From the NCBI RefSeq assembly GCF_029027965.1, contig NZ_CP119082.1, positions 2,336,001 to 2,400,000 on the forward strand: 64,000 nt of DNA. The letters run 5' to 3'. This DNA is from Paracoccus sp. S3-43 (GTDB lineage Bacteria > Pseudomonadota > Alphaproteobacteria > Rhodobacterales > Rhodobacteraceae). Made by a program: the position numbers and the translations under genes. Of the stretch, positions 13,623 through 50,014 are shown piece after piece. Position 1 is the stretch's first letter. Every line of letters begins with the position of its first letter. The notes under the pieces are model-generated. The model was given only the letters and a program-made list of their open reading frames with translations, was not told the origin of the DNA and did not search any database.

Positions 13623-14630
13623 ATGGCATCCATCACCCTCGACAAGGTCGGCAAGATCTATCCCGGCGGCACCCGCGCCGTGGGCGACGTGTCCATCGAC
13701 ATCGCGGACGGCGAATTCATCGTGCTGGTCGGCCCGTCCGGCTGCGGCAAGTCCACGCTGCTGCGGATGATCGCCGGGCTGGAAGGCATCAGCGAAGGCA
13801 CGGTCCGCATCGGCGACCAGGTGGTCAACGACATCGAGCCCGCCGACCGCGACATCGCCATGGTGTTCCAGAATTACGCGCTCTATCCGCATATGTCGGT
13901 GCGCCAGAACCTGGCCTACGGGTTGAAGAACCGCCGCACGCCGCGCGCGGAAATCGACCGCCGCGTGGCCCAAGCGGCCGAGATCCTGCAAATCGGCCCC
14001 TATCTGGACCGCAAGCCCCGTGCCCTGTCGGGTGGCCAGCGTCAGCGCGTCGCCATGGGCCGCGCCATCGTCCGCGACCCCGCCGCCTTTCTGTTCGACG
14101 AGCCGCTGTCGAACCTGGACGCCAAGCTGCGCGTGACCATGCGGCTGGAGATCAAGGATTTGCAGCGCCGCCTGCGCACGACCTCGATCTATGTCACGCA
14201 TGACCAGCTCGAGGCGATGACCCTGGCTGACCGGCTGGTGGTGCTGAACGCGGGCCGGATCGAACAGATCGGCACCCCGCTCGAGGTCTATCGCAAGCCC
14301 GCCTCGACCTTCGTCGCGGGCTTCATCGGCAGCCCGGCCATGAACCTGATCAGCAATCGCGCGGTCCCGCACCTGCCCGGCACGGCCCATGCCGGAACCA
14401 TCGGCATCCGCCCCGAGGATCTGACCCCCGCCCCGGACGGACCCATCGAGATGGAGGTTCTGGCGGTCGAGGAACTGGGCGCGCAACGCCTGGTCCACGG
14501 CCAGACCGGGGGCGAGCGGCTGACGGTGACGCTGCCCTCGGGGACCGAACTGCCGGATAGCCTGCGCCTGGCCTGGCGCCCCGGATCGCTGCACCTGTTT
14601 CAGGCGGAAAGCGGGCGCCGCATCGACTGA
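13623..14630 (+). CDS. ugpC: Glycerol-3-phosphate ABC transporter ATPase UgpC
   Basis: A 335-residue ATPase that powers UgpAE. It has the Walker [10 protein letters not shown] near residue 38, Q-loop [13 protein letters not shown], signature [14 protein letters not shown] and Walker [17 protein letters not shown]-terminal regulatory (TOBE/OB) domain follows from about residue 240, as in MalK-type ATPases. The [10 protein letters not shown] segment is typical of that domain. In other species UgpC also serves other sugar transporters, but here it is the last gene of a complete ugp operon. No terminator is obvious after it, and 68 bases separate it from the next gene. Confidence 0.93.
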
Positions 14631-14631
14631 T

Positions 14632-14646
14632 GTTCCTATTTCGTTC
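14632..14646 (+). promoter_or_regulatory. SOS-box-like site (GTTC-N7-GTTC) before the M4 protease gene
   Basis: GTTC at 14632 and GTTC at 14643 are separated by seven bases (CTATTTC), and a third GTTC follows at 14649. This is the exact layout of the alphaproteobacterial LexA box and matches the box upstream of recA in this same window in length and pyrimidine-rich spacer. It lies between ugpC and the protease gene, 52 bases before the protease ATG, with a possible -10 (TATTCT) at 14662. LexA control is an inference. Confidence 0.6.
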
Positions 14647-14698
14647 ATGTTCGGCCCGTGCTATTCTGGGATGAATCTTCCAGGACGGGATTCGCCTC

Positions 14699-15799
14699 AT
14701 GTGCTTTTCGCTGACCGGTTCGCAGCACCCTTCGATCCAGTGCATCGTGCCGCCCTATATGCTGCGGGTGCTGGTCCTGCGCGGCGATGCCAGGATGGCG
14801 GAAATGGCGCGCACGCTGCTGAAGCAGACCGAAAAGCTGCGCGAGGAACGGGCGGAATTCACCCGCGCGGGCCTGCCCCCGGCCGAGGCCCCCGGCGGCG
14901 CCTATGCCTCCACGGCCGTCACCCCGGCCGAGGATCTGTGCTGCCCCGACCGCCGCATCCATGACGGCCAGTTCCGCGCCGCCCTGCCCGGCAAGCTGAT
15001 CCGGTCGGAAGGCCAGGATCCCACGGGCATCGCGGATGCCGACACGGCCTATGACGCGGCGGGCCAGGTTTTCTCGCTGTTTGCCGAGGAATACGGCCGC
15101 AATTCCCTGGACGGCGCGGGAATGCCGCTGGTCGCCACCGTCCACCACCGGCGCGATTACAACAACGCCTTCTGGAACGGCGAACAGATGGCCTATGGCA
15201 CCGGCGACGGCAAGGTGTTCCGCACCTTCCTGGAACTGTCGGTGATCGGGCACGAGATGGCGCATGGCGTCATCCAGCATTCCGGCGGGCTGATCTATGA
15301 AAACCAGTCCGGCGCGCTGAACGAAAGCATCGCCGACGTGTTCGGCTCGCTCGCGCTGCAACGGGCGCTTGGGCAAGAGGCTCATCAGGCCGACTGGCTG
15401 GTCGGGCGCGGCATCCTCGGCCCCGGCATCAACGGCGCGGCGCTGCGCAGCATGAAGGCGCCGGGCACCGCCTATTCCGACGACCTGCTGGGCGTGGATC
15501 CGCAGCCCTGGCACATGGATCATTTCGTGGCGACCAGCGACGACAACGGCGGGGTGCATATCAATTCCGGCATCCCCAACCACGCCTTCTATCTGTTCTG
15601 CGCCTATCTGGGCGGGCGGGCCTGGGAACTGCCGGGGCGGGTCTGGTATCGCGCGCTTCAGACCCTGAACAACCCGATGGCCAGCTTTTCCGACTGGGCC
15701 GACCAGACCATGGACGCCGCCATCGAACTGACCAGCCGCGGCAGCTATGAGGCGGTGATGCTGCGCCGCGCCTGGAAACTTGTGGGAATCGCCATCTGA
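14699..15799 (+). CDS. Protealysin-like M4 metallopeptidase
   Basis: A 366-residue zinc protease of the thermolysin (M4) family, protealysin subgroup. No signal peptide is present. The short N-terminal propeptide carries the PPYML motif (18-22) that marks protealysin-like precursors. Zinc ligands are in HEMAH (185-189), with the distal glutamate E209 in ALNESIADVFG; GGVHINSG supplies the transition-state histidine H287. The catalytic domain appears complete. Protealysins of Serratia are cytoplasmic or released without a Sec signal and cleave actin and OmpX in host-interaction studies. The gene stands directly upstream of an emfourin-type inhibitor. A GTTC-N7-GTTC box precedes it. Physiological substrate here is unknown. 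Confidence 0.92.
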   Translation: MCFSLTGSQHPSIQCIVPPYMLRVLVLRGDARMAEMARTLLKQTEKLREERAEFTRAGLPPAEAPGGAYASTAVTPAEDLCCPDRRIHDGQFRAALPGKLIRSEGQDPTGIADADTAYDAAGQVFSLFAEEYGRNSLDGAGMPLVATVHHRRDYNNAFWNGEQMAYGTGDGKVFRTFLELSVIGHEMAHGVIQHSGGLIYENQSGALNESIADVFGSLALQRALGQEAHQADWLVGRGILGPGINGAALRSMKAPGTAYSDDLLGVDPQPWHMDHFVATSDDNGGVHINSGIPNHAFYLFCAYLGGRAWELPGRVWYRALQTLNNPMASFSDWADQTMDAAIELTSRGSYEAVMLRRAWKLVGIAI

Positions 15800-15833
15800 C
15801 CCTAGATTTCCCGCATCAGCGGGGAATCCGGCC

Positions 15834-16115
15834 ATGATCATCGAAATCGCGGCGCAGGGCGGCTTTGGCGGCATCGCCGCCGCCAACCTGCACAAGACCA
15901 TCGACGTGGCGGACCAGCCCGAACAGATGCGCCAGGAACTGTGCCACGCGTTCGAGCCTGACGAACTCGCCCGCCTGGCCAGCCAGCCCTGCGGCGACTG
16001 CGCCGACCGGCTGACCTATCGGATCACCGTAACCGAGGATCGCCGGACCCGCAGCTTCACCCTGCGCGAACAGCAGATCCCGCCCGACATGCTGGACCTG
16101 ATCGACCAGATGTAG
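15834..16115 (+). CDS. Emfourin-type inhibitor of M4 protease
   Basis: A 93-residue acidic protein beginning MIIEIAAQGGFGGI, 34 bases after the protease stop. Small proteins of this kind, encoded directly behind protealysin-like genes, are known as emfourins and inhibit the neighbouring M4 enzyme. The GGFGGI start, a central CGDCADRLTYRI strand and a DLIDQM end fit that family. The frame is open further upstream into the protease gene, but ATG 15834 is the first start outside it. The role is assigned from position and short motifs; inhibition of the neighbour has not been shown for this pair. Confidence 0.78.
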   Translation: MIIEIAAQGGFGGIAAANLHKTIDVADQPEQMRQELCHAFEPDELARLASQPCGDCADRLTYRITVTEDRRTRSFTLREQQIPPDMLDLIDQM

Positions 16116-48860: not shown

Positions 48861-49937
48861 TCACTCCTCGGTCAGGCTGTCCTCCTCGGAGTCGCCGCCC
48901 TCGGCTGCGAATTCCAGGCCGTGGCTGGCGCGGATCTTGTCCTCGATGGCCATGGCGCGGTCGGGATTGTCGCGCAGGAACTGCTTGGCGTTCTCGCGGC
49001 CCTGGCCGATGCGTTCGTCGCCATAGGAATACCAGGCGCCCGACTTTTCCACCACGCCGGCCTTGACGCCCAGGTCGATCAACTCGCCCACCTTGCTGAT
49101 GCCCTCGCCATACATGATGTCGAATTCCACCTGCCGGAACGGGGGCGCCACCTTGTTCTTGACGACCTTCACGCGGGTGGTGTTGCCGATCACCTCGTCG
49201 CGGTCCTTGACGGCGCCGGTGCGGCGGATGTCCAGGCGCACCGAGGCATAGAATTTCAGCGCGTTGCCGCCCGTGGTGGTTTCCGGGTTGCCGAACATCA
49301 CGCCGATCTTCATGCGGATCTGGTTGATGAAGATCACCATGCAGTTGCTGCGCCCGATGCTGGCGGTCAGCTTGCGCATCGCCTGGCTCATCAATCGGGC
49401 CTGGCTGCCCATCTGCATGTCGCCCATGTCGCCCTCGATCTCCGACTTGGGCGTCAACGCCGCGACCGAATCGACCACCACCAGGCTGACCGCGCCAGAG
49501 CGCACCAGCGTATCGACGATCTCAAGCGCCTGTTCGCCAGTATCGGGCTGGCTGATCAGCAGCTCGTCCAGGTTCACGCCCAGCTTCCTGGCGTATTGAG
49601 GATCCAGCGCGTGTTCGGCGTCGACAAAGGCGCAGACGCCGCCCTTCTTCTGTTCCTCGGCCACGACATGCAGCGTCAGCGTGGTCTTGCCCGAGCTTTC
49701 CGGGCCGAAAATCTCGATGATGCGGCCCTTGGGCAGGCCGCCGATGCCAAGCGCGATGTCCAGGCCCAGCGATCCGGTCGAGGTCGCCTCGATCTCGGCC
49801 ACCGGGCTGTCCTTGCCCAGCTTCATGATCGAACCCTTGCCGAACTGGCGTTCGATCTGGGCCAGGGCGCTGTCGAGCGCCTTCTGCTTGTCCGCGCTGC
49901 GCTTGTCGTTCATGTCGAAGATGCTCGCCTGTGCCAT
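48861..49937 (-). CDS. recA: Recombinase RecA
   Basis: A 358-residue strand-exchange ATPase that also triggers LexA self-cleavage. Walker A is GPESSGKTT (78-86), and the central signature [14 protein letters not shown] is intact. Its acidic C-terminal tail ([13 protein letters not shown]) is typical. A GTTC-N7-GTTC SOS box lies 62 bases upstream of the start, and a terminator follows the gene. It stands as a single-gene transcript. Confidence 0.98.
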
Positions 49938-49999: not shown

Positions 50000-50014
50000 G
50001 TTCACTTCTTGTTC
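50000..50014 (-). promoter_or_regulatory. SOS (LexA) box of recA
   Basis: GTTC-ACTTCTT-GTTC on the plus strand, read GAAC-N7-GAAC toward recA, matches the alphaproteobacterial LexA box exactly. It lies 63 bases before the recA ATG, where the LexA site of recA is expected in this group. Confidence 0.88.

Follow-up and report, generated by a model that had tools for sequence, protein, structure and literature searches.

A predicted LexA operator before a protealysin-like protease gene and a separate predicted promoter for its emfourin-family inhibitor in Paracoccus

Protealysin-like proteases have a known inhibitor and reported bacterial targets, RecA and FtsZ, whereas their natural role is less well known. 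In Paracoccus sp. S3-43, a gene pair of this kind, called pln and emf here, lies behind a motif like that of the SOS repressor LexA, which raises the question of whether the protease is controlled by DNA damage and whether its inhibitor is controlled with it. We analyzed a stretch of 64,000 nucleotides around the pair (the window; coordinates count from its first letter), which belongs to a single 3.22 Mb contig. The combination of a LexA box upstream of the protease gene and a promoter of its own for the inhibitor gene would, if true, tie the protealysin family to DNA damage and represent a new damage-controlled protease-inhibitor pair whose role is directly testable.

A sequence-only reading of the window had described an M4 protease next to its predicted inhibitor, and the Pfam matches bear this out. 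The first gene, pln (14699..15799, plus strand), encodes a protealysin-like M4 metallopeptidase of 366 amino acids that matches PF01447 and PF02868 well above the curated cut-offs (catalytic domain, 87.7 bits against 22.4; C-terminal domain, 150.4 bits against 24.4). The second, emf (15834..16115, plus strand), encodes an emfourin-family protease inhibitor of 93 amino acids (PF20242, E 8.4e-24; 84.2 bits against a cut-off of 27). Both reading frames are open in the window. The solved structure nearest to Pln is 2vqx, which we take to be Serratia protealysin (E 1.5e-87), with an alignment that starts at residue 14 and spans the PPYML region; the solved structures hold no sequence relative of Emf. 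No domains other than M4 were found in Pln, even with E values up to 10, and no secretion signal was apparent by eye. An ABC-transporter ATPase gene ends at 14630, leaving a gap of 68 bases (14631-14698) before pln; 34 bases separate pln from emf, and a DUF475 gene on the opposite strand follows emf after 70 bases.

The nearest named relatives of the window pln are from Paracoccus. Among 125 genomes of that genus, 51 gave a pln match; the match in G104 was a fragment (44 residues, E 9.5e-4) and was dropped, leaving 50 loci, in every one of which emf adjoins pln. The motifs HExxH-G, NE-x3-D, and GG-V/I-H-x-NSGIPN, including the downstream Glu and the active-site His, are present in all 50. The short N-terminal region carries PP[YH]ML in 48; the pattern misses L155, which has PPHIL, and L150 (genome G015), where pln lies in two frames near its 5' end owing to a frameshift or an assembly error. 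Compared with six relatives, the window pln has a dN/dS of 0.14-0.28. As judged by eye from protein starts, the gene just upstream of pln is of the transporter type in 11 of 13 loci and of the DUF808 type in 2, and these shared upstream neighbors make the pln-emf locus look vertically inherited.

The gap before pln contains GTTC-N7-GTTC, as the earlier reading had reported: GTTCCTATTTCGTTC at 14632..14646 on the plus strand, with half-sites at 14632-14635 and 14643-14646. That reading had also called its layout identical to that of the recA box, GTTCACTTCTTGTTC at 50000-50014, which lies 77 bases upstream of recA, whose start is at 49937 on the minus strand. The motif is indeed the same, but the orientation relative to the gene is opposite: in the reading direction of each gene, GAAC-N7-GAAC precedes recA but GTTC-N7-GTTC precedes pln. 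The uvrA box of the genome is oriented like that of pln. The motif occurs four times in the window against 1.04 expected, a number reached by none of 100 shuffles, and 96 times in the genome against 56 for a reversed control pattern. Taken alone, then, its presence upstream of pln is weak evidence and could be chance.

The company that the motif keeps in this genome is more informative. By simple gene calls, 35 of 93 distinct genomic matches are intergenic, and such matches lie close upstream of lexA, recA, and UvrA-, ParE-, and PcrA/UvrD-like genes. The identities of lexA and recA come from NCBIfam equivalogs above cut-off, and the other three are best NCBIfam matches of proteins that are cut at the locus edge and hence score below cut-off. 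Because it stands close before these genes, GTTC-N7-GTTC is very probably the motif that LexA recognizes in this genome, as it is in Caulobacter according to the part of the report consulted (PMC12700426). The same motif marks the alphaproteobacterial LexA regulons described for Caulobacter and predicted for Dinoroseobacter (PMC6473078); the consulted parts of these two reports name no protease with its own inhibitor.

In all 50 pln-bearing Paracoccus genomes, lexA is preceded by a motif whose start lies 32-51 bases upstream, and recA has one starting 69-82 bases upstream in 49 of the 49 genomes examined, the count being 49 because recA of G103 starts at a contig edge. Of 46 unique lexA/recA boxes, 45 have T before the second GTTC; of 82 extended boxes, 81 have T before the first. 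The pln box of the window has T before the first GTTC and C before the second, a one-base departure from consensus, and T is found at both positions in 9/9 pln boxes of a deep clade (63-67% protein identity). On a matrix trained on the lexA and recA boxes, the window pln box scores 17.6 (training median, 27.6), below about 98% of the training boxes. It nevertheless ranks 10th of the 93 distinct genomic matches, above the boxes of the uvrD/pcrA-like (16.6) and parE-like (13.2) genes, and the pln boxes of L039 (2.9) and L042 (9.7) score lower still. Two of the lexA upstream regions (L261 and L265) carry two tandem boxes each, with starts 11 bases apart.

Conservation before orthologues, which the sequence-only reading had made one of its tests of an SOS link, gives a mixed picture in Paracoccus. 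Within the 130 bases upstream of pln, 25 of the 50 loci have an exact motif (a longer stretch was scanned for L150 with its broken frame), and 23 have it at the canonical place, -61 to -67; the other 27 lack a box there. The 23 comprise the 13 nearest relatives including the window (L031-L043), L053, and 9/9 of the deep clade. The exact boxes of L047 and L052 lie elsewhere, score below zero on the matrix, and were left out of the canonical count; L044 and L150 carry ATTC-N7-GTTC in the corresponding position. All 27 genomes without a canonical pln box still have a boxed lexA. Placed on a tree, the state of the box requires five changes, which fits either an ancestral box that was then lost or repeated gain. 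In part of a box-less clade (L059 and L141-L146), a conserved ACGTGAAC stands at about -81 to -84 from pln; on the reverse strand it reads GTTC-N7-ATTC, one base off the box, in all 7 loci, which were left uncounted. This element is possibly a decayed operator or the site of another regulator.

What surrounds the half-sites is telling. In the sets of 13 and 9 box-bearing loci, the box spacer is 66-73% identical, the 15 bases 3' of the box are 47% identical, and the 30 bases 5' of it are 37-38% identical; compared between the two sets, the flanks are 24-32% identical. Presence of the box was the criterion for grouping the 13 loci, which partly accounts for their fixed half-sites, and the real evidence of conservation is the contrast between half-sites and flanks together with the presence of the box in 9/9 members of one clade. 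Motif density is also uneven, with 25 matches in 5.0 kb of pln upstream DNA and 14 across the remaining 290 kb of these loci (~100-fold). Counts across related genomes, here and elsewhere in this analysis, are not independent. Two loci, L034 and L039 (L061 and L062 by coordinates), keep the box despite having a DUF808-type upstream neighbor instead of the transporter ATPase. We conclude that in some Paracoccus lineages the pln box probably functions as a LexA operator, and we predict that pln is a member of the LexA regulon in this strain and in two groups of its genus.

The earlier reading had further proposed looking for the box before protealysin-like genes across Rhodobacteraceae. The gene proved too rare for such a comparison: outside Paracoccus, pln was found in 2 further genomes among the 394 of a family sample, both without the box, and in 1 of 385 of a class sample. 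No box precedes pln in these three genomes or in L083. Among more distant relatives we examined 57 loci (L084-L140; 80 kept of 282), mainly from Streptomyces and Pseudomonas. Searches of these with GAAC-N4-GTTC, CTG-N10-CAG, and the alphaproteobacterial motif gave 2 isolated matches, which we take as chance, and the window Emf as query found no emf in the 57. As no convincing LexA-type box precedes these relatives, the SOS link does not extend to the family as a whole.

The position of the box relative to the promoter of pln suggests how it could act. A predicted promoter, P1, lies at 14639..14667 on the plus strand, with a -35 element TTTCGT (14639-14644), a 17-base spacer, and a -10 element TATTCT (14662-14667). 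Its -35 element overlaps the second half-site of the box, a usual position for a repressor, and LexA bound at this site would block RNA polymerase. TANNNT is found at -30 to -38 before pln in all 50 loci, mostly after TGC, TGT, or TGG. In the 23 loci with a canonical box, the hexamer 16-17 bases before TANNNT overlaps the second half-site; box-less loci keep the -10 element but carry other -35 sequences, such as TTGCCG. P1 is predicted from these patterns, the shuffle control having covered the second promoter described below; neither of the two promoters appeared in a strict scan for the sigma-70 consensus.

This second predicted promoter, P2, precedes emf at 15780..15808 on the plus strand (-35 TTGTGG, 15780-15785; 17-base spacer; -10 TAGATT, 15803-15808), with its -35 element within the 3' end of pln and TAGATT just past the pln stop. 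The pattern TTG-N3, 16-18 bases, and TANNNT occurs once each before emf in 48 of the 50 loci, and the spacing is always 17; in the remaining two, L148 and L149, emf begins at the pln end and the element is absent. In 200 shuffles, the pattern appeared in a mean of 0.09 of 9 loci (deep clade) and 0.18 of 39 (the rest without L148 and L149), but it was chosen after the data had been seen, so the shuffles overstate its significance and codon usage is the better control. The -35 element falls inside pln in 39 loci, and the Leu codon there is CTT in 39/39, although CTT makes up 5.7% of Leu codons in 13 window genes; where the -35 element lies elsewhere or is absent (11 loci), CTG is used in 9, TTG in 2, and CTT in none. 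In the deep clade, the element lies in a longer pln-emf gap with its spacing kept. The outgroup L212 has the pattern, and L083 lacks its strict form. No LexA motif was found in the P2 region of any of the 50 loci. Emf thus seems to have a separate conserved promoter without a box, predicted from these patterns, and the closed unit under one switch that had been proposed is probably wrong; a two-promoter picture should replace it. A scan between pln and emf found no terminator-like site. The intergenic sequence of the 13 near relatives can fold into a hairpin, but it shows no two-sided pair changes and pairs no better than shuffled sequences, and this candidate was dropped.

Taking these elements together, we consider LexA control of pln combined with a separate emf promoter to be likely. 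The SOS control proposed by the sequence-only reading gains support from the conservation of the box and from the same box before lexA and recA, all of this being evidence from sequence. We would expect LexA bound at 14632-14646 to cover the -35 element of P1 and keep the protease low, so that in an unstressed cell P1 would be repressed, P2 would be on, and emfourin would be in excess. As the emf promoter has no LexA box, the inhibitor would be present before damage and would keep leaked protease silent, provided that Emf acts in this species as its family suggests. Upon DNA damage, RecA would trigger LexA self-cleavage, P1 would open, and the protease would rise; read-through over the 34-base gap would add some inhibitor, and the balance would move from inhibitor excess toward free protease. 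By analogy with Serratia protealysin, the likely targets of Pln would be FtsZ, leading to division arrest, and RecA, shutting off the response. A RecA-cutting protease would, on the other hand, oppose the response that induces it, which is a point against SOS wiring.

The protealysin-emfourin operon of Serratia proteamaculans has the same two families in the same gene order as pln-emf, and the part of that work consulted reports that protealysin degrades RecA and cuts FtsZ at its linker and states that emfourin inhibits the neighboring M4 peptidase (PMC9505478). The earlier reading had known of no role in DNA damage for this family; given the cleavage of RecA and FtsZ in Serratia, part of the SOS link was already in print, while the literature searched, which covered few subscription journals, yielded no report of a protealysin under LexA control. 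Among PMC9505478, PMC11172720, PMC7311988, PMC8537836, and PMC6778150, LexA appears in two, in the references only, and in the first of these as a reference title only. The two systems appear to be wired differently: quorum sensing is said to regulate protealysin activity in Serratia (PMC9505478, in part), whereas the Paracoccus genes have a LexA-type box at the predicted pln promoter and, set against the Serratia operon, a predicted promoter of their own for emf.

What would such wiring be for? One answer, which we regard as a serious possibility though short of probable, is a checkpoint within the cell itself, in which the protease would halt division by trimming FtsZ and later terminate the response by trimming RecA. 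E. coli SulA is an SOS-controlled block of division, and both it and SidA of Caulobacter are small binding inhibitors, not proteases. SidA is described as an SOS-induced division inhibitor (PMC12700426, in part), and Pln, if FtsZ is its target, would be an analogue of the two in its control and its effect on division while differing from them in being a protease. Besides the SOS box before pln, the lower UV survival of E. coli carrying the Serratia protealysin gene speaks for this reading, but Serratia mutants lacking both genes, or emfourin alone, showed no significant difference in UV sensitivity (PMC9505478, consulted in part). That 51 of 125 Paracoccus genomes have a pln match (one being the fragment) and 23 of 50 loci have the canonical box also counts against it, as this is not the distribution of a core SOS function. 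A more specific form, in which LexA acts on the protease only, the inhibitor promoter is constant, and the size of the damage signal sets whether the protease exceeds its inhibitor and cuts FtsZ and RecA, making a thresholded and self-limiting checkpoint, seems doubtful to us. Clades without the box offer natural controls.

A rather unlikely purpose, in our estimate, is that of a colicin-like weapon: an SOS-induced toxic protease released by lysis or in vesicles, with Emf as a separate immunity protein, from which neighbors lacking emfourin would suffer. The predicted promoter of emf suits this reading, and some colicins have separate immunity promoters. The wiring resembles that of colicin operons, in which the inhibitor gene comes after a LexA-repressed effector gene; in the case of colicin E2, LexA represses an operon of colicin, immunity, and lysis genes in this order (PMC4161892; also PMC4675545 for colicin operons; both in part). 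Interbacterial competition has also been proposed for the Serratia pair by its authors (PMC9505478, in part). Unlike colicin operons, however, pln-emf is followed by no lysis gene in the window (the neighbors in the 13 other loci were judged by eye only), Pln consists of M4 domains with no receptor-binding or translocation domains found, and the locus sits on the 3.22 Mb contig, with no relative at 60% identity or more in plasmid records.

It is improbable, we believe, that the motif arose by chance or is a mere part of a conserved -35 region that LexA does not bind. The genomic background of 96 motifs against 56, the coincidence of the second half-site with the -35 element, the 27 loci without a box, and, in this strain, the C where T is usual all favor such an account. 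Against it, the first half-site lies outside the -35 element, and yet the exact motif is fixed in place in the whole deep clade and the 13 near relatives amid variable flanks; box-less loci keep the -10 element with other -35 sequences, and the motif is far denser before pln than in the rest of the loci. A phage-defense or phage-response module, as the first reading had suggested and as the general link between prophage induction and SOS might encourage, is highly improbable and finds no support in PADLOC (no match), in viral contigs (no relative with six peptide patterns), or in a phage collection (all matches below 60% identity).

Some other boxes in the genome may deserve attention alongside that of pln. 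A strong LexA-type box, ranking 3rd of 93 on the matrix, lies around position 1501 of L018 (587939-587953 in the genome) between a radical SAM gene and a GST gene, which are possible further SOS members. Near-identical boxes, GTTCGATTTCTGTTC (twice) and GTTCGATTTCCGTTC, occur in the same genome at L172 1535, L188 1462, and L190 1494, and these may be part of a mobile element, because a short open reading frame near the last of them looks transposase-like by eye.
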